Source: a virus
DNA length: 28,578 nt
Virus record (IMG/VR): IMGVR_UViG_3300032397_000060
Location: 1-28,578 of that record
Direction: 5' to 3' (one strand)
The position numbers and the translations under genes are program-made. The notes below the pieces were generated by a model, which did not search any database, was not told the DNA's origin, and saw only the letters and a program-made list of their open reading frames with translations. Shown here one piece after another: positions 2,381 to 28,289 of the stretch. The stretch's first letter is position 1; every line of letters begins with the position of its first letter.

Positions 2381-4543
2381 TTACCAATCAAAACCCATAC
2401 TTGTGAAAAGATCATCTAACCATGCACAACAAGCACCTATTGAATATAGATTTCTTTTATCAGGTAATTGTCTAGCCCTTATATCTGTTGTTTGACCTGT
2501 TGCTAAAGATGCTGTACCAGTTTGCCATAAAGGTCCGTTTGGTTTTATTTCTAAAAATCTGTTTGAAGTGTTAACTAGATCTGAAAAACAATTTACTGCA
2601 GATAATGATCTTAGGCCTGCTTCTGAACCAGAAGTATCTGATGATGCACATTTACTAAATGTCCCACTTTGAGAACCATAACAAACACCTGAAGCAGGAA
2701 ATGAAGCACAATTCCTTAAAGCTACACAGTTTGCTGCAATAGCAGATGCACCATCATAAGTTGTAAGATTCCAGATACTTGCCCTATTAGTACCAGCAAG
2801 AACATTATATGCAGAAGTTACAGGTTTTATGACAATAATATTATAAATACTTAATGTTACTCCATTAGCATTTGAAGACAAAGCATTTAATGCATAACCT
2901 GCACAATCAATTATTAAATCATGAACTTTTGCTGTACCTGAACCTTGGTAAAAATAAATAAGATCACCTATAGCAGAAGAACAATGAATTCTTAAATTTT
3001 TTATTTCTAAATTTATTGATGCAGTTGGGTTCATCACTATAAAATAAGACGAAGTACTACCAGCACTAACTACAGATTTCCAACCTTTAGTTATGTCACC
3101 ATTATGTGTTACTTCACTTGTTAAAGTTAAAGATTTACCCCCTGGATTAAAAGTCCACCAGTTACCAGCAGAACCCTCGGATGTGTCTGAAATTTGTATA
3201 AAAGTTTTATTTTCTGTTAATGTAGTATTACGTATTGCAGTCTTAACTGCATTCCAATTTTCATAAGTACCATAATTACCAACATAATAAGTTCCTACAG
3301 GGGTAATATCTGTCAATGTTACTGTTGTTGCAGTATAATTTATAGTCAAATCCCTATATTTTCTAAAAGATGTACCTTCAGAATAATTAGAAAACGTACC
3401 AGAAACTGTACCTGCTGAAATTATTGTATAGACAGTTGCAAGTGTTGAATTTGAACAAGTTGAAACAACTAAACTACCACCAATAGTAACAGTTCCTGTT
3501 GTTGATATTAGACTAATAACTCCTGTTTTATCTAAATAAACTGTATAAGTTGAACCTGTTGAAATGTCTTTATTTACAGTTAAACCACCTGCATTGACAA
3601 TAGTTGTCCCTGAATAAGTAATTCCTGCACCTGATAAAATCTGATTACCTACGCCATTTTTTACTACATTGATTGTACCTGCAGTATTTTGTAAAGTACC
3701 ATTGAAAGTTTGAGCACCACCATTAGTTATTGTTATGTTTGAAGTTCCTGCAACTGTTTTATCAATAGTTCCAGAACCACTAATTTCAGAACAGTTTATG
3801 TCAGAATCATATAAGTCTAAAGTACCTGAAACTAATAATTTAGGAGGATTTGTCCCCCAAGTAAAACCAGTATTTGTTAGTTGTGCACCTGCTTGAATAT
3901 CAATAGTTGATGTCGTTGTTATAGAAACATTATTACTTGAACTTGCACTAAATGTACCGCCTGTTATTCTTAATGTTCCTGAAGAACCTGTAAATATAGT
4001 TGTACCTAGTGCAGGTGTTGTATTTCCATCAAGAATTAAAGTACTATTAATAGACCAAGTTCTTGGTACAGTATTAAAAGCACCTAAACTACATTTCAAA
4101 ATTCCATTATTCAGAGTTACTCCTCCTGCAAATGTATTATTTCCTGATAAAATTGTAGTATTACTTCCCTGTACTGTTATACCATAAGTAGTTCTTAAAC
4201 TACTAATTATACCACTTATAGTTATGTCTGCTGTTGATGTAACAATAGTTCTTGAAGCAGTCAACAATAAATCATGTTCAATTGTTTGAAGATTTGATGA
4301 ACTATTTGTAATAGTTCCATTTACTGCAATTCTATTACCTGTATTCGTAAAAGCAGAAGCACCTGCATTAAATGTTATGGTAAATTTTGTGTCTTCAGGT
4401 AAATCATTAACAGTAGTAGTTCTTGTACTACCTGCAAATTGTAAGACATCACCACCAACTGGTGTTCTTAATAATGACCAATTATCTGGGTCACTCCAGT
4501 TAGATGTTGTAGGACTTAAACCTGTCCAAATTGTTGTTGCCAT
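2381..4543 (-). CDS. Beta-helical tail spike / receptor-binding protein with autotransporter-type strand repeats
   Basis: This is a 720-residue protein rich in Thr, Ser, Asn, Gly, Ile and Val. The N terminus (WTG...NWSDPDNW...TPVGGDVLQFAG, residues 6-38) matches the entry motif of proteins that carry autotransporter-associated beta-strand repeats. Repeat-like units follow at about 123-152 (ILSGNNTFAGGVTLNNGILK) and 285-320 (ILSGAGITYSGTTIVNAGGL). After about residue 400 there is a parallel beta-helix-like region, and the C terminus has TTDIRARQLPDK..YSIGA, like the D-x-R-x-R-P...IGA closing motif of secreted beta-helix proteins. No signal peptide or autotransporter barrel is present, so it is probably a virion protein assembled in the cytoplasm. 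It lies 8 bases after the large collagen-like fibre and has an AGGAA ribosome binding site. Confidence 0.7.
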   Translation of the reverse strand: MATTIWTGLSPTTSNWSDPDNWSLLRTPVGGDVLQFAGSTRTTTVNDLPEDTKFTITFNAGASAFTNTGNRIAVNGTITNSSSNLQTIEHDLLLTASRTIVTSTADITISGIISSLRTTYGITVQGSNTTILSGNNTFAGGVTLNNGILKCSLGAFNTVPRTWSINSTLILDGNTTPALGTTIFTGSSGTLRITGGTFSASSSNNVSITTTSTIDIQAGAQLTNTGFTWGTNPPKLLVSGTLDLYDSDINCSEISGSGTIDKTVAGTSNITITNGGAQTFNGTLQNTAGTINVVKNGVGNQILSGAGITYSGTTIVNAGGLTVNKDISTGSTYTVYLDKTGVISLISTTGTVTIGGSLVVSTCSNSTLATVYTIISAGTVSGTFSNYSEGTSFRKYRDLTINYTATTVTLTDITPVGTYYVGNYGTYENWNAVKTAIRNTTLTENKTFIQISDTSEGSAGNWWTFNPGGKSLTLTSEVTHNGDITKGWKSVVSAGSTSSYFIVMNPTASINLEIKNLRIHCSSAIGDLIYFYQGSGTAKVHDLIIDCAGYALNALSSNANGVTLSIYNIIVIKPVTSAYNVLAGTNRASIWNLTTYDGASAIAANCVALRNCASFPASGVCYGSQSGTFSKCASSDTSGSEAGLRSLSAVNCFSDLVNTSNRFLEIKPNGPLWQTGTASLATGQTTDIRARQLPDKRNLYSIGACCAWLDDLFTSMGFDW

Positions 4544-4551
4544 AGTTATTC

Positions 4552-7500
4552 CTAATATTTAAAATTAAGAACTGATGAACACATTAAATTAGTACCATCA
4601 AAATAAAAACCAAGAATATCTGTACAACCAGTTTGACCAGAAAATACAGGTGCAACTGCAAGTGGATATTGACAACCAGTTGGTGTCAAAGGTACTGAAT
4701 TTGCTAAATATTGAATTATTACAGAAGTGTTTGCTCCTGTTGCATTATTAGCAAAAATCATTTTGCAACCAGTTGAACCTAAATTTGCTATAGCTCTTTG
4801 TTTTCTACCATTTGCCCAATCAACAGTAAAAGACGTACCAGTTGACATAGTACCTGCATCATATTGACTTGTTGGTATAACACCTGTTTGACCTTGCAAG
4901 CCAGTTGCACCACCTGGATCGCCAGTTATACCTTGGACACCTGTTAAACCTTGAACGCCAGTAGGTGAAGTACCTGTCAGACCTTGAACACCAGTAGTTG
5001 CTTGTGCACCAGTGAGACCAGTAGCACCCTGCAACCCCTGTATTCCTTGCGTTCCTGTAATTCCAACTGTACCAGTAATTCCAACTGTTCCAGTAATTCC
5101 AACTGTTCCAGTAATACCGATTGTTCCAGTATTACCGACTGAACCTGTATTCCCTTGTACTCCTTGTGCACCAGTGATACCTTGTAGACCAGTAGCACCC
5201 TGCAACCCCTGTATTCCTTGCGTTCCTGTAATTCCAACAGCACCTGCAACTCCATTTTCACCTGTTATTCCTTGTAAACCGTTTTCACCAGTAATTCCGT
5301 CTGCACCTGCAATTCCATTTTCTCCAGTAATCCCTTGTTCTCCAGTTATTCCTTGTAAACCGTTTTCACCAGTAATTCCGTCTGCACCGGTTATACCTTG
5401 AACTCCATCAAGACCTGTAATACCGTCAATTCCAGTTATTCCCTGTACTCCATCTGCCCCTGTAACACCATCAACACCATTTATTCCAGTTGTACCATCA
5501 ATACCTTGTGATCCAGTTATGCCCTGCACTCCATCAGATCCAGTAATTCCTCGTAATCCAGTTTCTCCTTGTACTCCGTCTGTCCCTGTAAGTCCTTGCA
5601 CTCCATCTGATCCAGTAATGCCTTGAACCCCGTCAAGTCCTGTAATACCCCAAGTTCCTGTAATTCCTTGTATCCCATTTTCTCCCGTAATTCCATAAGT
5701 TCCTGTCTCACCTTGAACTCCTTGTTGACCTGTTATGCCAATGACACCAGTGACACCTTGAATTCCGTCTTCACCGGTGACACCTTGAATTCCGTCTTCA
5801 CCAGTTATTCCCTGAACTCCATCAGTTCCTGTAATACCAATAATACCAGTAATGCCTTGTTCTCCGGTAATACCCTGAACTCCGTCAAGTCCGGTAATTC
5901 CGTCTATTCCAGTAATACCTTGTACACCATTTTCGCCTGTAATTCCAATGACACCAGTAATGCCTTGTACTCCATCTTCTCCGGTTATACCTTGAACTCC
6001 GTCAAGTCCAGTAATACCGTCTATTCCTGTCAATCCTTGTAACCCAGTTTCTCCCTGTTCTCCTTGAATTCCAGTAAGTCCTTGTACACCGTCGAGTCCT
6101 GTAATCCCTTGTACACCATCCAATCCAGTAAGTCCTCGACTGCCGTCATCCCCTGTGATTCCTTGAATTCCTTGTTCTCCTGTGATTCCAATTGTTCCTG
6201 TATCACCTTGAACTCCTTGTGTTCCAGTAATACCTTGTAAACCTTGTTCTCCTGTAATGCCCTGTATTCCTTCAGAACCTGTGATACCTTCAGTTCCAGT
6301 AATTCCCTGATTGCCTTGTTCACCGGTAATTCCTTGAATTCCATCTGAACCAGTAATGCCCTGAATGCCATCAATTCCTGTGATACCTTGATCTCCTGTA
6401 ATGCCCTGTATTCCTTGTTCTCCTGTGATTCCAATTGTTCCTGTATCACCTTGAACTCCTTGGTCACCTGTTATTCCCATCAAACCAGTAATGCCCTGTA
6501 CTCCGTCAAGACCTGTAATCCCGTCTATTCCAGTAATCCCTTGTAGTCCTGTTTCTCCCTGTATTCCGTCAACACCTGTAATTCCCTGTACACCATCTAA
6601 ACCTGTAATGCCGTCTATTCCTGTTATACCTTGAACTCCGTCAAGACCTGTAATCCCGTCTATTCCAGTAATCCCTTGTAGTCCTGTTTCTCCTTGGACA
6701 CCATTTTCGCCAGTAATGCCCTGAACTCCATCAGTTCCTGTAATACCCTGAACTCCATCAGTTCCTGTAATACCCTGAACGCCATCAAGACCAGTAATTC
6801 CATCAATTCCTGTGATCCCTTGAATACCCTGGTCACCTGTTATGCCAACAACGCCTGTATCACCTTGTATTCCTTGGTCTCCAGTTATCCCTACGGGTCC
6901 CTCTAAGCCGGTGATACCTTGAACCCCTGTATTACCTATGGTGCCTGTATTTCCTTGAACTCCAGCCAACCCTGTGATACCCTGGATACCTTGCTGTCCT
7001 GTTATACCAATAATACCTGTATTTCCTTGAATTCCTTGTTGTCCTGTAATGCCTTGAACACCTTGTTGTCCTGTTATACCAATAGTTCCCGTAATGCCGA
7101 CAACACCAGTATTTCCGACTGAACCTGTATTGCCAATTGAACCAGTATTACCAACAGAACCAGTATTCCCTTGAATTCCTTGCTGACCCGTAATGCCGAC
7201 AACACCAGTATTTCCAACTAAACCAGTCAAACCTTGAACACCTGTATTTCCTACTGAACCTGTATTCCCTTGTGTTCCTTGAGCACCAGTAGGAGCAATT
7301 GCACCTGTATTTCCAATTGAACCTGTAATTCCTTGAATCCCCTGAACTCCAGTGATTCCCTGAATGCCTTGAGAACCTGTTATACCAATAGTTCCAGTTG
7401 CAGCAATACCTTGCTCACCTGTTATTCCTTGAAAACCAATACCAGTTACACCTTGAGCACCTTGCAGACCAGTAATGCCCATTACACCAGTCTCACCTTG

Positions 7501-7614
7501 ATACCCATGGATACTGGTTATGATCCATTTGTTATCTTGTGATTTGAATGTGTAAACAGTACCGAGACTGTTTGTGAATGTTTCATTGTTGACTGGTGAA
7601 GTTGGAAAAGGCAT
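4552..7614 (-). CDS. Giant collagen-like tail fibre (1020 residues)
   Basis: There are three zones. Residues 1-36 (MPFPTSPVNNETFTNSLGTVYTFKSQDNKW) match the short 'P.NPT.GQTFTN..G..YT....N.W' adaptor common at the start of phage fibre proteins. Residues about 37-911 are Gly-X-Y repeats dominated by GIT, GVQ, GIQ, GLQ, GNT and GDQ. Proline is almost absent and Thr or Gln fills Y. The last ~109 residues (VDWANGRKQRA ... DILGFYFDGTNL) match the beta-sandwich C-terminal cap of many phage fibres ('DWSNGNKQ...DIISFLYDGTN'), a likely trimerisation domain. The cap contains cysteines. The ribosome binding site is AGGAGTTCTAA before ATG 7614. The fibre should be a homotrimer on the tail tip; exact placement is inference. 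Confidence 0.85.
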   Translation of the reverse strand: MPFPTSPVNNETFTNSLGTVYTFKSQDNKWIITSIHGYQGETGVMGITGLQGAQGVTGIGFQGITGEQGIAATGTIGITGSQGIQGITGVQGIQGITGSIGNTGAIAPTGAQGTQGNTGSVGNTGVQGLTGLVGNTGVVGITGQQGIQGNTGSVGNTGSIGNTGSVGNTGVVGITGTIGITGQQGVQGITGQQGIQGNTGIIGITGQQGIQGITGLAGVQGNTGTIGNTGVQGITGLEGPVGITGDQGIQGDTGVVGITGDQGIQGITGIDGITGLDGVQGITGTDGVQGITGTDGVQGITGENGVQGETGLQGITGIDGITGLDGVQGITGIDGITGLDGVQGITGVDGIQGETGLQGITGIDGITGLDGVQGITGLMGITGDQGVQGDTGTIGITGEQGIQGITGDQGITGIDGIQGITGSDGIQGITGEQGNQGITGTEGITGSEGIQGITGEQGLQGITGTQGVQGDTGTIGITGEQGIQGITGDDGSRGLTGLDGVQGITGLDGVQGLTGIQGEQGETGLQGLTGIDGITGLDGVQGITGEDGVQGITGVIGITGENGVQGITGIDGITGLDGVQGITGEQGITGIIGITGTDGVQGITGEDGIQGVTGEDGIQGVTGVIGITGQQGVQGETGTYGITGENGIQGITGTWGITGLDGVQGITGSDGVQGLTGTDGVQGETGLRGITGSDGVQGITGSQGIDGTTGINGVDGVTGADGVQGITGIDGITGLDGVQGITGADGITGENGLQGITGEQGITGENGIAGADGITGENGLQGITGENGVAGAVGITGTQGIQGLQGATGLQGITGAQGVQGNTGSVGNTGTIGITGTVGITGTVGITGTVGITGTQGIQGLQGATGLTGAQATTGVQGLTGTSPTGVQGLTGVQGITGDPGGATGLQGQTGVIPTSQYDAGTMSTGTSFTVDWANGRKQRAIANLGSTGCKMIFANNATGANTSVIIQYLANSVPLTPTGCQYPLAVAPVFSGQTGCTDILGFYFDGTNLMCSSVLNFKY
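5016..5238 (-). repeat. 52-bp identical direct repeat inside the collagen-like gene, 171-bp offset
   Basis: Positions 5016-5067 and 5187-5238 are identical over 52 bases (each copy begins gaccagtagcaccctgcaac). The offset of 171 bases is 57 codons, or 19 Gly-X-Y triplets, so a copy could be gained or lost without breaking frame or helix register. Confidence 0.85.
6501..6693 (-). repeat. 58-bp identical direct repeat inside the collagen-like gene, 135-bp offset
   Basis: Positions 6501-6558 and 6636-6693 are identical over 58 bases (each begins ctccgtcaagacctgtaatc). The offset of 135 bases is 45 codons, or 15 triplets. Perfect DNA identity, including synonymous positions, points to recent duplication or gene conversion rather than selection on the protein alone. 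Confidence 0.85.
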
Positions 7615-8220: not shown

Positions 8221-10461
8221 TTAAAATCCTTGACATATTGCAATGTAATCCCATTTTGAATCTGTAGCATTATAAATAAATCCATAATAAGAATGTTTAC
8301 CTGCCAATGTAAGTGAAGGTAAGAATGTAAGATCTGTTGAAGCCCTGAAATCTGAAGTCCATGATAAACTCTGACTACTTGTTGTTTTTACTCTTATTGT
8401 AAGTTTTTGTGCTTCTCCTGGTGTACCTGAAGGACTCAAAAAATTCAATGTTCCTGATCCTGCAGTAATATTAAATTGATCATACAAATTTGTGTCAATT
8501 GAAACACCTCCAGGTGCTATCATTCCTGTAGAATAAGTTCTATTACCACCTATTAAACCAGTTGCACCCATTAAACCAGTGTTTCCTAATATTCCAGTTC
8601 TACCTTGTGCACCTGTCTGACCTATCAAACCAGTAACACCAGTAAGACCTGTAACACCAGTAAGACCTGTAACACCTTGAACTCCTGTTCTACCTTGAAC
8701 ACCTGTTGCACCTATCAAACCAGTAACACCAGTAAGACCAGTAAGACCTGTAACACCTTGAACTCCTGTGGCACCTTGAACTCCTGTTCTACCTTGAACA
8801 CCTGTTTGACCTATCAAACCAGTAAGACCTGTAACACCTTGAACTCCTGTAGCACCTTGCATACCAGTAACACCTTGAACTCCTGTAGCACCTTGAGGAC
8901 CTTGAATACCTGTTACACCACCAACTTCACCTTGTGGCCCTGTAATTCCTCTTTCACCAGTATTCCCTTGACTTCCCTGAGGCCCTGTAGAATATGATAT
9001 ACCTGTTAAACCTTGAAACCCAGTAATACCTGCAATACCTGTCTTTCCTTGCAACCCAGTTATTCCTTGATAACCAGTAATTGCTTGAGCACCAGTAATT
9101 CCCTGTAATCCTGCACTACCTGTTACACCCTTATGTCCAGTCAAACCTTGAATTCCTTGTGCACCAGTAACTGATTGTGCACCAGTAATACCTTGATTTC
9201 CTGCAATACCATTTTCACCAGTAATACCTTGAGGACCTATTAAACCGGTAGGTGCTTGAATTCCTGTTATGCCAATTTCACCTGTATTACCCTTAATTCC
9301 TTGCTGACCTGTAATTCCTTGCTGACCTGTCAATCCAACAAAACCTTGCTCACCATATAAACCTTGCACACCTGTTATTCCTTGATTACCAACAAGTCCA
9401 TCTTCACCAGTCACACCTTGAACACCTACATTACCAGTAATACCCTTCTCACCAGTAACACCTTTTATTCCTGTTCCTCCTACAATTCCCATTCCAGTAA
9501 TGCCCTGTTTACCAGTTATACCTTGCAAACCTTGACCACCTGTAGGTGCTATCTGACCTGTCAAACCTTGTCTTCCTTGAAGTCCATCTTCACCTGTCAC
9601 ACCCTGAGGTCCGATAATTCCAGTAATTCCACGTATACCTGTTATCCCTTGTGTTCCTGTTAACCCTACGAGTCCATTCGAGCCGGTGATACCTCTATGC
9701 CCAGTTAACCCCTGGACCCCTTGACTACCTGTTATCGCTTGTGCTCCAGTAATCCCACGTAATCCCGTAGGACCCTGTAAACCAGTGGTCCCATCTGTTC
9801 CTGTACAACCTTTTGCACCAGTGTTGCCAATTAAGCCTGTGATACCACTTGAACCAGTATTTCCAAGTGCCCCTGTATTGCCAACAAGTCCTTGAATTCC
9901 AGTCTGACCTGTTAAGCCAGTAGCACCAGTTAAAGAACCTGCAGAAATCTGGACCCAGAAATTAACTCCTGTAATTCGAGCATAAAGTGCATTGTCATTG
10001 ACATTCCAAAGAAATTCAGGATGAGAAAGAGCGCCTGTAGGAAAACTATTTCTTTCAATCCAGTTTGCAAGTCCAGTGACACCTTGTAAGCCAGTAACAC
10101 CTCTGACACCAGTAACTCCTTGACCACCTCTGATTATATTGTCTATGACAGATTTTTCGACTGTTTGTAATAGGTCTTTGATTTCAATGCTAACAGTTCG
10201 CCCGGGTGTATAGTTGTCATCACCTGTGAACTTGACCCATGATTGAAATTTCCAGACACCTATTTGATTGTTTTCTGTACCAGTGACGTCTTTATAGATT
10301 TGTGTTGGGTATCCTGATACTAATTGGGCATCCCAATAGGCAGATGTTTCGTCTGGTTTTTCATACAAGATTTTGATTGAAGAAACAGAAGAAAGATCGA
10401 CATCTGTTTCAAGAACTAACTGATAGGGCTGATTAATGAAGAACGATTGTGTAGTGGCCAT
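8221..10461 (-). CDS. Collagen-like tail fibre with duplicated N-terminal adaptor domain (746 residues)
   Basis: Residues 1-110 form an adaptor-like beta domain (SFFINQPYQLVLETDVDL ... QIGVWKFQSWVKF) that is clearly related to the neighbouring 134-residue protein. Its IKILYEKPD core is reminiscent of N-terminal domains of phage baseplate upper proteins. About 113-130 is a short collagen-like run, about 131-176 a globular insert (WIERNSFPTGALSHPEFLW), and about 177-638 a long Gly-X-Y run with GVT, GIT, GLQ, GPQ and GNT. The last ~107 residues (NLYDQFNITA ... PSGTPGEAQKLTIRV) match a C-terminal beta domain frequent in phage fibres. The ribosome binding site is GGAGTAAAGA. It is probably a trimeric side or tip fibre. 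Confidence 0.85.
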   Translation of the reverse strand: MATTQSFFINQPYQLVLETDVDLSSVSSIKILYEKPDETSAYWDAQLVSGYPTQIYKDVTGTENNQIGVWKFQSWVKFTGDDNYTPGRTVSIEIKDLLQTVEKSVIDNIIRGGQGVTGVRGVTGLQGVTGLANWIERNSFPTGALSHPEFLWNVNDNALYARITGVNFWVQISAGSLTGATGLTGQTGIQGLVGNTGALGNTGSSGITGLIGNTGAKGCTGTDGTTGLQGPTGLRGITGAQAITGSQGVQGLTGHRGITGSNGLVGLTGTQGITGIRGITGIIGPQGVTGEDGLQGRQGLTGQIAPTGGQGLQGITGKQGITGMGIVGGTGIKGVTGEKGITGNVGVQGVTGEDGLVGNQGITGVQGLYGEQGFVGLTGQQGITGQQGIKGNTGEIGITGIQAPTGLIGPQGITGENGIAGNQGITGAQSVTGAQGIQGLTGHKGVTGSAGLQGITGAQAITGYQGITGLQGKTGIAGITGFQGLTGISYSTGPQGSQGNTGERGITGPQGEVGGVTGIQGPQGATGVQGVTGMQGATGVQGVTGLTGLIGQTGVQGRTGVQGATGVQGVTGLTGLTGVTGLIGATGVQGRTGVQGVTGLTGVTGLTGVTGLIGQTGAQGRTGILGNTGLMGATGLIGGNRTYSTGMIAPGGVSIDTNLYDQFNITAGSGTLNFLSPSGTPGEAQKLTIRVKTTSSQSLSWTSDFRASTDLTFLPSLTLAGKHSYYGFIYNATDSKWDYIAICQGF

Positions 10462-21451: not shown

Positions 21452-22117
21452 TTAAGCAACTTCGCCGGTTATACCCTGCATACCAGTTATGCCCTGAGTA
21501 CCAGTAATACCGACTGTACCAGTGAGACCCTGTACACCGTCTGCACCAGTAATGCCGATAGTTCCAGTAATACCAGCAGTTCCAGTAATACCGACCGTAC
21601 CAGTAATACCGACTGTACCAGTGAGACCCTGTACACCGTTCTGACCAGTAATACCGATAGTTCCAGTAATACCAGCAGTTCCAGTAATACCGACCGTACC
21701 AGTGATACCCTGAGTCCCTGTAATACCGACAGAACCAGTAAGTCCGACTGTTCCTGTGATACCTCTTGTACCAGTAATACCGATCGTACCAGTATTTCCA
21801 ACTGAACCTGTGATACCCTGTACACCCTGAACTCCAGTGGATCCAGAAATGTCATAAGCAGTCCATGTACCATTGACTTTCTTTTGAGAAGTCAAAACAC
21901 CAGCATTATTAAAAATTCTCATGCTGTTGTTGACATCAGGATCACCTAAGAAAAGATAACCTGAGAGGATTATATCATTGAGTTCTTCATCGGAGGGATC
22001 TGGTGAAAAATCACCACTGGATCCTACATCGACCCAGCCAGCAGTAGTCCATGTGCTTAAATCACTGAAATCGATGTATGCATATACACCGTCTTTCCTT
22101 ACATATGTGTTTGCCAT
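21452..22117 (-). CDS. Collagen-like head fibre / capsid decoration protein
   Basis: This is a 221-residue protein. The first ~91 residues form a globular domain (MANTYVRKDGVYAYIDFSDL ... MRIFNNAGVL) that probably binds the capsid. Residues ~92-221 are Gly-X-Y repeats of GIT, GTV, GTA, GVQ and GLT with no proline. There is no C-terminal cap: the chain ends GITGMQGITGEVA within the repeat. Its position directly after the major capsid gene, isolated by stem-loops on both sides, fits a head fibre. The ribosome binding site is AGAAGGCACA. A 99-bp tandem repeat lies inside. Confidence 0.75.
   Translation of the reverse strand: MANTYVRKDGVYAYIDFSDLSTWTTAGWVDVGSSGDFSPDPSDEELNDIILSGYLFLGDPDVNNSMRIFNNAGVLTSQKKVNGTWTAYDISGSTGVQGVQGITGSVGNTGTIGITGTRGITGTVGLTGSVGITGTQGITGTVGITGTAGITGTIGITGQNGVQGLTGTVGITGTVGITGTAGITGTIGITGADGVQGLTGTVGITGTQGITGMQGITGEVA
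21501..21698 (-). repeat. 99-bp tandem repeat, two copies, in the head-fibre gene
   Basis: Positions 21501-21599 and 21600-21698 are nearly identical copies of a 99-base unit, equal to 33 codons or 11 collagen triplets. Differences are clustered at ccgtctgcacc versus ccgttctgacc. The unit length preserves reading frame and Gly register. Confidence 0.85.
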
Positions 22118-22203: not shown

Positions 22204-23319
22204 TTATCCGCAAAGAATGCAACCGTATTTCGGCTGTACGACACGGGCACCAATATAAAAGTCCCATGTCCATATATTCTTGAGGTATGACTGATCAAAG
22301 TTACTTGAAACTCGGATCGAAATACCTTTTGAACTTGCAACACTGACACCGGCACCTACTGCAGGAGGAGTAACCATTGCCAATGCAAACGCAACAGGAT
22401 TGAAAACAACATTGTGTTTGAATGCAGTTTCAAAGGTCACAGCAGCAGTAGAAGGAGAAGTTGCAAGAACTGGATAAATGCTAAGTGCTGCAACTGCATT
22501 ACTTGCAATTGTCGCATTTTCCATAACGGTATAAATTGTTGCATCACCAGCAACAACAAACCGTGTACCTGCATAAATAGTACCAGTTGAGGAAGAAAGT
22601 GAAGCAAGTGAACAAGTTGCCGCAGCAGCAGTACCAGAAGCAGTTACCGAACCAGTGATATCACCACGTGTATAAGTCCCACTATATGGTGAACGGAAGA
22701 AATCCATACCTGCCATTTTTCCAAGACTGTTACTTACAAGTGCTGAAGGTCTGTTCGGACCATAATCAGAACTCGTAAATACTGTTGCCTGTAACAATGA
22801 GGCATGCGCTGTTGAACTAATTATGCTTACAAGTTGGTTTTCGTTTGCTTTGTTGTCAAATATTTTCTTTTCAGCGGCAACAATGTGAGCAAGTGTAGAA
22901 GGTTGATTACCTGCTGTACCTGCAAGGTTCTGAGCAAAACCACCGCAAAGCTTTTCAAGAAAATATGTTTCTGCTTTGAGAACAAGGGCATCAATGACAG
23001 GATACTGCACCAAAGCATTGAAATCATCAAGACTATAAGTTAATTCCTCAGAAGTAACTTCTTTCTTGATATAAATATGTTTTTCAACGACAACAGGTAC
23101 TCTGGATTCAGTGATGTCATCAACGTTAGTAGTACCACCAACAGCAAGTTCAGAAGCAGTAGCAATCGGGGGAACTTTTACATAAACAGTCGAACCAACT
23201 TTACCGTTAAACTTTGTTTCAACACTTCTATTCCCCATCAGACCTACTAACAAATTGTCCTGGAGAATAAGACCGGCATCCCTACTTACATCTGTAGAAG
23301 TAAGAAATGTATTTGACAT
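22204..23319 (-). CDS. Major capsid protein, P22 coat-like
   Basis: This 371-residue protein is read from ATG 23319. A GTG two codons upstream is in frame, but AGGGAG sits 6 bases before the ATG, which decides the start. The N-terminal arm (STDVSRDAGLILQDNLLVGLMGNRSVETKF), the segment GSTVYVKVPPIATASE and the C-terminal end SYLKNIWTWDFYIGARVVQPKYGCIL resemble coat proteins of the P22 type within the HK97 fold. A Ser/Ala/Thr-rich stretch at about 235-300 is likely an inserted surface domain. It follows the scaffold gene, as expected. Confidence 0.85.
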   Translation of the reverse strand: MSNTFLTSTDVSRDAGLILQDNLLVGLMGNRSVETKFNGKVGSTVYVKVPPIATASELAVGGTTNVDDITESRVPVVVEKHIYIKKEVTSEELTYSLDDFNALVQYPVIDALVLKAETYFLEKLCGGFAQNLAGTAGNQPSTLAHIVAAEKKIFDNKANENQLVSIISSTAHASLLQATVFTSSDYGPNRPSALVSNSLGKMAGMDFFRSPYSGTYTRGDITGSVTASGTAAAATCSLASLSSSTGTIYAGTRFVVAGDATIYTVMENATIASNAVAALSIYPVLATSPSTAAVTFETAFKHNVVFNPVAFALAMVTPPAVGAGVSVASSKGISIRVSSNFDQSYLKNIWTWDFYIGARVVQPKYGCILCG

Positions 23320-23391
23320 ACACACTCCCTTTTGGTTAATGTAGATTTATATTAGTTCTACTTTTCCTCCAGGGAATTTCGAAACTGTTGT

Positions 23392-25491: not shown

Positions 25492-25617
25492 TCACTTTTT
25501 ATGCCATCCATGTTTAACCGCCTGTGCCACTCTTTCAAAATTGTTTCGTGCTCTTTCTGAACGAAACTTTCTGATTTCTCCATTGGTCATTTTCAAGCGT
25601 TTCTTTCCTATCTTCAT
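25492..25617 (-). CDS. Very small basic protein coupled to the portal gene (41 residues)
   Basis: ATG 25617 overlaps the portal stop as ATGA, with AGGAG 8 bases upstream inside the end of the portal gene. The 41 residues (MKIGKKRLKMTNGEIRKFRS, then ERARNNFERVAQAVKHGWHKK) are strongly basic. The ending FRSERARNNFERVAQAVKHGW resembles a short conserved protein found near portals in other phages. It is out of frame with the long form of the next ORF. Function unknown; a nucleic-acid or portal-binding peptide would fit the charge. Confidence 0.75.
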   Translation of the reverse strand: MKIGKKRLKMTNGEIRKFRSERARNNFERVAQAVKHGWHKK

Positions 25618-27074
25618 TGTGCCACTCCTGTTATGCCACCTATTTCTGTCACAGTTTCATCTGTTTCTGTTGCACCAGACAACTGTTCGTCTTCTGTTGC
25701 AAGTTTAATTTCGTCTATAACTTCTTTCATAGTTTCTTCATCTTCATCTGAGAACAACAGTTTCACAACTTTCTGTTTCAGCAAACCTTTAGAAAGTGGC
25801 GGCAAATCCATGAGCATTGCTTTATCCAGATTAGCTAATTGATTTGTGACATCTTGAGGTTGGAAGTCATCTTTGTATTCTACTTCAAGTTCTAATGGCT
25901 GTTTTGTATAAAGACAGAACATAGAACCTGATGCTTCTTCAAAATCCTCAGCCAGACTTGATGTCTTTTCAAGTACTGCTTCTTCTGCAAAGAAATACCA
26001 CTGTAAAGCAATACCAGAAGTTCCCTGTTGAACACCTGATACACCGTTCTGTTGTGCAATTCTAAACAAGTCCTCACGTAGTTTCTCACCTGAATCTGAA
26101 AGACCTTTAAGAATTGCAGCATCTGGACTTGCAAACCCAGGTGGGATTGTCGAACCTATAGGCAGATACAGAACATTCTTATTACCAAGAGTAATATTGC
26201 CTGTCTGGTCTGACTGTAAATAAAAGACAGAAAAGCCTTGTGCTCTTTCTTGATCCCTTATTTCACTGTCTTTGTTGAAAATAGTGAAGTTAATTTTTGC
26301 AAGATCGTAAAGTGGTGGGTCTACTAAGATTTGTTCATTAGATTTACGTTTTGCACAATAGACAGAAATTACTGGTACTGTTCCAAGATTGTGTACTTTT
26401 GGTTGTTCTACAGCATCACCATTATCATTGACTAAAGTCGAGTCAACCTTTGTCCATTTGCGATATAGTTGATTACCTTTGTCGTCTTTCTTGTCTGTGA
26501 ATGTAATTGATTCTAACTTGCCGAACTTGTCGACAATAAAACCATTCTCAGATTTTATTTGTTGACTTGTCTTGATGTACATATAAGGGTAGATTCTATT
26601 GTCTTTTGCTTCTTTTTCTGTTGCTGGTTGTACTTCAAAGTTATCCATGACAACAAAACACACACCGTGTAATCTAGCATATTCCAAGACTTCCTGTGTA
26701 AAAGGTTGCATTGGCATGCCAGTATTTGTGACGTCTTCTATAAACTCATTCAACAGTGAGTCTTCAACTATAGTACCATTTGTGTCCTGAATAACACGTA
26801 GTGCTTCTTCATTGAATACTGGTTCAATCATTGCTTTCAAAATAGGTTTCATGAAGTTTCTGTAATAACATTGTTTGCGTCTTGAATCATAGTTCATCTC
26901 CCTGTCATGTGCAACAAGATATGAACCGTCACGATAACCACCAGTACCATTTAATGAGTTGTCCATAAAGTCATAGACATTTTCATTTGATATTAGTTTC
27001 TGGTTTAATGTTTGAGCAACATTTGGGTCAACATATACTTCTGTCAATAATTTGTCTGCAGCATCCATTGTCAT
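25614..27074 (-). CDS. Portal protein
   Basis: This 486-residue protein directly follows the large terminase, as portals do. Features include an N-terminal wing region (MNYDSRRKQCYYRNFMKPIL), a mid-region VPVISVYCAKRKSN..LVDPPLYDLAKINFTIFNKDSEIRDQERAQGF typical of portals of the DUF4055-like group, and helical stem and crown segments with acidic Glu/Asp runs near the end (KLLFSDEDEETMKEVIDEIK). It forms the dodecameric ring through which DNA enters. The ribosome binding site AAAGGAGAACAAC lies before ATG 27074. Confidence 0.85.
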   Translation of the reverse strand: MTMDAADKLLTEVYVDPNVAQTLNQKLISNENVYDFMDNSLNGTGGYRDGSYLVAHDREMNYDSRRKQCYYRNFMKPILKAMIEPVFNEEALRVIQDTNGTIVEDSLLNEFIEDVTNTGMPMQPFTQEVLEYARLHGVCFVVMDNFEVQPATEKEAKDNRIYPYMYIKTSQQIKSENGFIVDKFGKLESITFTDKKDDKGNQLYRKWTKVDSTLVNDNGDAVEQPKVHNLGTVPVISVYCAKRKSNEQILVDPPLYDLAKINFTIFNKDSEIRDQERAQGFSVFYLQSDQTGNITLGNKNVLYLPIGSTIPPGFASPDAAILKGLSDSGEKLREDLFRIAQQNGVSGVQQGTSGIALQWYFFAEEAVLEKTSSLAEDFEEASGSMFCLYTKQPLELEVEYKDDFQPQDVTNQLANLDKAMLMDLPPLSKGLLKQKVVKLLFSDEDEETMKEVIDEIKLATEDEQLSGATETDETVTEIGGITGVAQ

Positions 27075-27086
27075 GTTGTTCTCCTT

Positions 27087-28289
27087 TTATGAAAAGAATT
27101 TGTTTCTGTCTGCTATTACAACTTTAACTAATAGTTTTCCGAGTATGGCATAACGCCTGCTGTCCATGCAATGATCGAAGCCTTCTTGAGGCTTGTTTGT
27201 GATCTTACCACTTGAGTCCTGAATGTACTTATAGTTTCTTTGTTCTTTGATTGCATTTAGACTTCTTTTTGTCCAGACTAATTTGTATTGATTTACTCGT
27301 TGAATACCATTTTCTACTGAGTCTGGTCCTTTTGGTGCACCTTTGATATTATAACCATATAGTTTGATTTCTTGTATAGATTTTGGTTCTGCTGCATCTG
27401 CAAATATCTCATCAAAGTTTTTCTTTACACCAAAACTTGGGAGTCTGTTTGCTATTTCATTATTTGTGAGTCCTGTTTCATAGATTAATTCATCTGAATA
27501 GATTGTGTCTCGTGTTATCAAGCATTTTACTAATGCTGTCGGATCTGAACTATAACCAAAGTCAAGACCGTATACCAGAATGCCGGGTTCATTAGGGAAT
27601 TCATCTACTTGTCCATCCAGTGCATGTATGAGTCCTTCTATGTTCCCGACTAAACCGAGTCCATAGATTCTAAACCAGTTTACATCATGTCTTCTTGATT
27701 CTATTTTGTCGAAGATGTTCTGTAATGATTGTGCATCTTCTGGTTCTAATTGTGATAGTAAAACTTTGCTGTCTTGATATGTACTGTGTATGTACTCAAC
27801 ATCTTTTTCTGTTCTGATTAAGTCATGTGCCCAGAATTCTTGTACAGGGTTAAAGTCAAGAAATGTGCATTTAGATGTTCTAATGAATAATTCAAGAAAT
27901 GAGTCCTTGGTGATGTTATTGCACTCATTGATATACAGGATATGTCTTCTACCACCTCTTAATCGAGCAGAAGCATCAGCACTAAAGAATTCAATGATTG
28001 TCCCGTTACCAAAATCATAAGTAAAGTTTGATGCGTTCCAGCAGTCATCATCAAAGTCTTCACCCATGATTTTCTTGTAATCACGAATACAACCGCGCTT
28101 CAAGTGTGGTATAGACTCAGAAACTATAGAAATAAGCAAGTCTGGTGTATGCATTGCAATGATGATAAGCAATTGCAAGATAGACCAAGTTTTAGAACTT
28201 GTTGTCCCGCCTTCATTGATTATTAACCGCTTGTAATCATTGAAAGCTTTGAGATTCTTTGAGAATACGCCTGTAGTATGCATTTGCAT
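27087..28289 (-). CDS. terL: Terminase large subunit
   Basis: This 400-residue packaging ATPase and nuclease has a Walker A-type loop GGTTSSKT (27-34), less usual than GGxGSGKS but found in PBSX-type terminases. Walker B with catalytic Glu is ILYINE (117-122), followed by CNN where related enzymes have ANE. The nuclease half begins VYGLDFGYSSDPTA (239-251, catalytic Asp243), continues EIFADAAEPKSI (294-305, Asp298) and ends FDHCMDSRRYAI (371-382, Asp372/Asp376). All expected catalytic acids are present. The ribosome binding site is weak (GAGTGAA), so translation may be coupled to the small subunit 38 bases upstream. Confidence 0.9.
   Translation of the reverse strand: MQMHTTGVFSKNLKAFNDYKRLIINEGGTTSSKTWSILQLLIIIAMHTPDLLISIVSESIPHLKRGCIRDYKKIMGEDFDDDCWNASNFTYDFGNGTIIEFFSADASARLRGGRRHILYINECNNITKDSFLELFIRTSKCTFLDFNPVQEFWAHDLIRTEKDVEYIHSTYQDSKVLLSQLEPEDAQSLQNIFDKIESRRHDVNWFRIYGLGLVGNIEGLIHALDGQVDEFPNEPGILVYGLDFGYSSDPTALVKCLITRDTIYSDELIYETGLTNNEIANRLPSFGVKKNFDEIFADAAEPKSIQEIKLYGYNIKGAPKGPDSVENGIQRVNQYKLVWTKRSLNAIKEQRNYKYIQDSSGKITNKPQEGFDHCMDSRRYAILGKLLVKVVIADRNKFFS

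Follow-up and report, generated by a model that had tools for sequence, protein, structure and literature searches.

Collagen-like tail fibres are common in phages, and the protein of 1020 amino acids described here, encoded by an uncultured phage, is a real and extreme case of them. In phage 80alpha the upper tail fibre FibU (gp68) consists of a BppU domain followed by collagen (PMC7048315). This baseplate collagen fibre resembles a 746-amino acid protein of our phage in having a BppU-like N terminus and then collagen; however, its repeat amounts to ~10 triplets (residues 178-208), compared with 156 in the 746-amino acid protein and 287 in the 1020-amino acid fibre, which has no BppU domain. 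The side-tail proteins EPclA and EPclB of Escherichia coli prophages are likewise phage collagen-like fibres with end domains, and EPclA forms trimeric, extended molecules ~50 nm long (PMC3368898). The EPcl proteins have 48% Pro at X and about one-third charged residues at X and Y, whereas in the fibre of our phage Pro is down to 0.3% and basic residues are very few. Averaged over viral collagens, Pro takes 22% of X and 9% of Y positions (PMC3368898).

The collagen-like trimer gp12 of SPP1 is encoded beside the major capsid gene (PMC6316719), and by repeat and gene position it parallels a third collagen-like protein of our phage, although gp12 has 64 amino acids and its counterpart 221. The streptococcal adhesins Scl1 and Scl2 also possess long Gly-X-Y stretches without hydroxyproline, and NCBIfam Scl models match the 1020-amino acid protein above their cut-off, through the repeat only. 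We rejected this match as a composition artefact; the fibre is found in a phage setting and lacks the LPXTG anchor, no LP dipeptide being present anywhere in the 1020 residues. The sequence matches in the PDB to animal collagens cover only the repeat and were set aside as indicating no wider kinship.

Genomic setting of the fibre gene

The window is the entire 28,578-base IMG/VR record IMGVR_UViG_3300032397_000060, of class 'linear', which is probably a fragment of the phage genome; its features are listed in Table 1. The nearest relatives of the terminase are those of Flavobacterium phages (42% identity), and on this kinship a Bacteroidota host is therefore likely. Searching with the capsid protein for close phage relatives returned one 6.5-kb fragment (L209), cut inside the gene. 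The 752-amino acid protein matches no family among the Pfam, PHROG and NCBIfam profiles, and its position and C-terminal motif make it a probable tape measure. From this gene the order runs through tail proteins and the BppU-like collagen gene to the fibre gene, which sits in the tail-tip module.

Table 1. Positions of the features within the 28,578-base window
Feature	Position	Strand	Basis or remark
Structural module (terminase, portal, capsid, tape-measure-like and tail-tip proteins, three collagen-like genes)		minus	
Large terminase	27087-28289	minus	Pfam Terminase_3C
Portal	25614-27074	minus	phrog_145
Major capsid protein, P22 coat family	22204-23325	minus	profile match, E 9.7e-17
Third collagen-like protein, 221 aa, 43 triplets, 0 Pro	21452-22117	minus	adjoins major capsid gene
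Tape-measure-like protein, 752 aa	14896-17154	minus	position and C-terminus ALGGDFVTNG...ITVGDNPGGRERVQITP
Paralogue of the 746-aa N-terminal domain, 141 aa	10465-10890	minus	34% identity
Second collagen-like fibre, 746 aa, 156 triplets, 1.9% Pro	8221-10461	minus	BppU/80alpha-fibre-like N-terminal domain
Collagen-like tail fibre, 1020 aa	4552-7614	minus	ORF, Pfam PF01391, PHROG tail fibre families
N-terminal cap, aa 1-36 (FPTSPVNNETFTN...VYTFKSQDNKW)	7507-7614	minus	sequence; weak PHROG match phrog_17970, E 0.0034
Gly-X-Y region, aa 37-913, 287 triplets, six runs	4876-7506	minus	
Longest unbroken Gly-X-Y run, aa 110-871, 254 triplets (762 aa)	5002-7287	minus	
Acidic central rod, aa 221-760	5335-6954	minus	~17-18% D/E in X+Y
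C-terminal non-collagen domain, aa 914-1020	4555-4875	minus	all-beta model, low confidence
720-aa protein after the fibre gene	2381-4543		autotransporter passenger-type repeats (PATR, slightly under cut-off)
GT2-like glycosyltransferase	1444-2148	plus	weak match, E 7.9e-5
Methyltransferase-like protein overlapping the GT2-like gene	950-2148 (pair)	plus	by eye only

The 1020-amino acid protein matches the Pfam Collagen family PF01391 with an E value of 2e-131 and 428 bits against a cut-off of 27.2, and its PHROG matches are to tail-fibre and 'collagen like minor tail' families. We consider it likely that the protein forms a trimeric collagen-type fibre at the tail tip. Its 746-amino acid neighbour contains six in-phase Gly-replacement sites, five of them with Ala or Ser. 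For an AlphaFold2 model of the N-terminal domain of this neighbour (pLDDT 79), the best Foldseek matches were baseplate chains of NF5 (9m8o) and 80alpha (6v8i), the leading ones at E 1.5e-4 to 3e-4 and the whole set at E 1.5e-4 to 9.7e-4 with TMq of 0.64-0.68; generic Ig-like folds come close behind, and the modelled fold is BppU-like. The 221-amino acid collagen-like protein is a candidate head fibre. The 720-amino acid protein encoded after the fibre gene is probably a beta-helical tail spike, and the overlapping methyltransferase-like and GT2-like genes are convergent with the structural module.

The Gly-X-Y repeat among phage collagens

The plus strand across the fibre gene is full of stops, so the coding strand is the minus. 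A preliminary description of this DNA had reported an open reading frame of 1020 codons with Gly-X-Y over most of its length, and this stands, 861 residues lying in 287 triplets. It had also called some 875 of the residues uninterrupted, which they are not: there are six runs (aa 37-60, 60-71, 74-106, 110-871, 886-903 and 902-913) and five breaks. The longest run is flanked on either side by an in-phase Ala for Gly (GAIAPTG at aa 107 and GAQATTG at aa 872), and its 254 in-phase Gly residues lie far outside chance, since 1000 shuffles of the region gave in-phase Gly runs of 11 at most. Between the best-matching internal copies of the repeat, the Gly codons differ by 133 synonymous and 0 non-synonymous changes, the zero arising partly by construction because the unbroken run is defined by Gly. 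The age of the repeat is therefore sufficient for the codons to have become scrambled, with Gly itself kept fixed.

At X (n = 287) the most frequent residues are Ile (106, 37%), Val (45, 16%) and Leu (33, 11.5%), together 64%, followed by Glu (24) and Thr (21); at Y (n = 287) they are Thr (110, 38%), Gln (91, 32%) and Asp (35, 12%), Thr and Gln together making 70%. Pro occupies two of the 574 X and Y sites (0.3%), one of each kind, and at 1 of 287 X residues the Pro-rich X of canonical collagen is absent. The near absence of Pro, the dominance of Thr and Gln at Y and that of Ile, Val and Leu at X had all been described correctly; Asp and Glu, which had been counted among the main X residues, are a minority there (11.5%), Asp favouring Y (35 compared with 9 at X). 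This placement of Asp mainly at Y, as in GLDGVQ and GIDGIT, is unlike that in Pro-rich phage collagens. Acidic residues are largely confined to aa 221-760 and both ends of the rod are nearly uncharged, which gives a polyanionic middle with neutral ends.

Beyond the repeat, the sequence of the N-terminal cap suggests that it is probably an attachment segment. The C-terminal 107 residues are predicted to be all-beta in a poor model (pLDDT 48) that is compatible with a fibre tip and goes no further, and the domain, for which searches of IMG/VR, GenBank phages, GTDB genomes, the PDB and PHROG returned no sequence relative, is a candidate trimerisation domain or receptor-binding tip.

A survey of Pro content in phage collagens had been suggested in the preliminary description. 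Ours combined 80 loci similar to the 1020-amino acid query with a second sample from IMG/VR, found by a composition-neutral DNA pattern of in-phase Gly codons; among the matches listed, 204 ORFs remained after the samples were pooled and near-duplicates dropped. In the neutral set, among the matches listed, the Pro content of Thr/Gln-type collagens was ≤1% in 5/80, ≤2% in 9/80 and ≤5% in 17/80, and low-Pro phage collagens are therefore a recurrent minority; the fibre is Pro-poor, as described, and not unique. Among the matches listed, it ranks first of the 204 ORFs both in hydrophobic X (64%) and in unbroken run length, and 13th in triplet number. Some Pro-free collagens carry Gln in place of Thr (L069, L043 and L054), L069 having 93% Gln and 0.7% Thr at Y. 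At L137:240-8639 a 2800-amino acid open frame contains 665 Gly-X-Y triplets, which would nominally extend over ~570 nm; Thr fills 70% of its Y sites, and Pro amounts to 0.2%. A GxFAGQG break recurs, spaced along the low-Pro phage collagens L026:5044-9111, L016:5794-12276 and L043:5839-7836, as if marking hinges. The Pro content of phage collagens increases with GC (rho 0.38), and the 2.8% Pro background of the window predicts ~16 Pro in the fibre compared with the two observed, the repeat copies not being independent in this comparison; a mutational explanation through GC for the missing Pro is a partial one.

With a rise of 0.286 nm, the 861 residues of all triplets would span 246 nm and the longest unbroken run 218 nm. 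These lengths are a plain multiplication, and within the survey they do not stand out. The helix of ~250 nm proposed earlier is thus matched when all triplets are summed, and as one piece would reach only ~218 nm. By the rule of thumb of ~0.15 nm of tail per tape-measure residue, the 752-amino acid protein would set a tail of ~113 nm, and the claim of a fibre longer than its tail is nominally supported (~246 compared with ~113 nm). Fibres longer than the tail are ordinary in T4 and in short-tailed phages, and to exceed the tail is not strange in itself. Because low-Pro phage collagens recur, others reach greater lengths (as many as 665 triplets, in L137) and such fibre lengths are ordinary, the surprise is smaller than had been claimed.

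A proposed triple helix without Pro and its possible stabilisers

Three comparisons point to collagen-like behaviour without Pro, none of them a proof, and from the sequence we infer a triple helix. When Pro is excluded, the preference of residues for Y over X agrees with that in Pro-rich phage collagens (Spearman rho 0.80, p 6.5e-4). In-phase Gly replacements in low-Pro phage ORFs are Ala or Ser in 47/53, many of the 53 coming from duplicated repeats and so not being independent events; the predominance of Ala and Ser would arise because the tight Gly core requires small residues. The third comparison is with folded bundles of short polyproline-II helices, to which the long run free of turns is ill suited. 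A host-guest propensity scale shows no significant correlation with the X/Y bias of the fibre (rho 0.24, p 0.5), Ile in the X position and Asp in the Y position running counter to it, and by the same scale the mean additive triplet stability of the fibre ranks at the survey's 20th percentile. We dropped host-guest propensities as proof of a triple helix, the correlation being significant in Pro-rich phage collagens only.

It had been suggested that the chain might fold otherwise, and a single chain could in principle form a bundle of polyproline-II or polyglycine-II helices instead of a triple helix. The adhesin of Salmonella phage S16 and the snow-flea antifreeze protein fold in this manner, likewise with Gly at every third residue and no need of Pro. 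Such bundles are built of short helices joined by turns, yet 254 triplets run here without a turn, and the X/Y preferences track those of Pro-rich phage collagens; together with the Ala and Ser replacements of Gly, this makes a self-folded bundle highly improbable.

If the triple helix is adopted, it would need a stabiliser other than Pro, and acid-base pairs, Thr glycosylation and Gln networks had been put forward. Salt bridges are ruled out by the composition of the fibre, which has 71 Asp or Glu, two Lys or Arg and 0 K/R-G-D/E pairs, whereas phage collagens rich in Pro have 4.3 such pairs in every 100 triplets. Glycosylation would have the Thr residues at Y modified by the phage's GT2-like enzyme, the sugars replacing Pro as proposed for BclA (PMC8968730). 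In addition to that precedent, it draws on the 110 Thr at Y and on the weak GT2 match (E 7.9e-5) situated 2.4 kb from the fibre gene. The enzyme has no relatives in viral contigs or phages. We rejected a phage glycosyltransferase as the modifier of the fibre because no association emerged across 60 collagen-phage records, GT2 genes being present in 11/30 low-Pro and 9/30 mostly Pro-richer records (p 0.78). Pro-free relatives such as L069 have Gln and hardly any Thr at Y, and the fibre contains no D[ST][AILVMT] site, which we take to be the Bacteroidetes O-glycosylation motif. EPclA is not glycosylated (PMC3368898). Thr glycosylation thus gained no positive support and is a very unlikely source of stability.

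The stabilisers that remain for a triple helix are perhaps Gln and Thr at Y, length, the end domains and possibly packing between rods through the hydrophobic X residues. This last feature could be taken further, with several trimers bundling laterally through the 64% Ile, Val and Leu at exposed X, in the style of the C1q stem, into a thicker and possibly shorter appendage. The packed C1q stem is lined by hydrophobic residues (PMC11869133), and the hydrophobic X fraction of the fibre is the highest of the 204 surveyed ORFs, among the matches listed; however, the acidic centre (aa 221-760) should repel neighbouring rods, and nothing in the sequence speaks to their number. We regard such bundling as unlikely.

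The model that we prefer is a single trimeric fibre. The short N-terminal segment would dock onto the baseplate, the ~287 triplets of three chains would make up a rod reaching ~246 nm at most, and the C-terminal beta domain would set the register of the three chains, bind the host surface, or both. Pro would be replaced by Thr and Gln at Y and by Ile, Val and Leu at X. Stability would most likely derive from sheer length, the anchoring of both ends, hydrogen bonding by Thr and Gln on the Y side and a modest temperature, with no part for salt bridges or sugars, and hydrophobic X faces may pack rods laterally. In long bacterial collagens the melting temperature reaches a plateau of 36-39 C above ~150 residues, with a weaker dependence on sequence (PMC7824840). 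In the virion the fibre could be truncated, unstructured or bundled.

Significance for collagen stability and phage biology

The stability of collagen is usually credited to Pro and hydroxyproline, to ion pairs or to glycosylation, and the 1020-amino acid fibre is without the first two; relatives with only Gln at Y have no sites for the third. Phages thus supply natural test pieces for what a triple helix needs at the least, and templates from which recombinant collagens free of hydroxyproline could be designed. For phage biology, the record contributes a long fibre, encoded by an uncultured phage with a terminase closest to those of Flavobacterium phages. We propose tentatively, at somewhat less than an even chance, that Gly-(Ile/Val/Leu)-(Thr/Gln) alone sustains a true triple helix that is several hundred residues long and all but devoid of imino acids and ion pairs, and that the fibre is one of a group of Pro-free phage collagens that recurs and has been little described. 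If this is true, a triple helix would require none of Pro, salt bridges and sugars.
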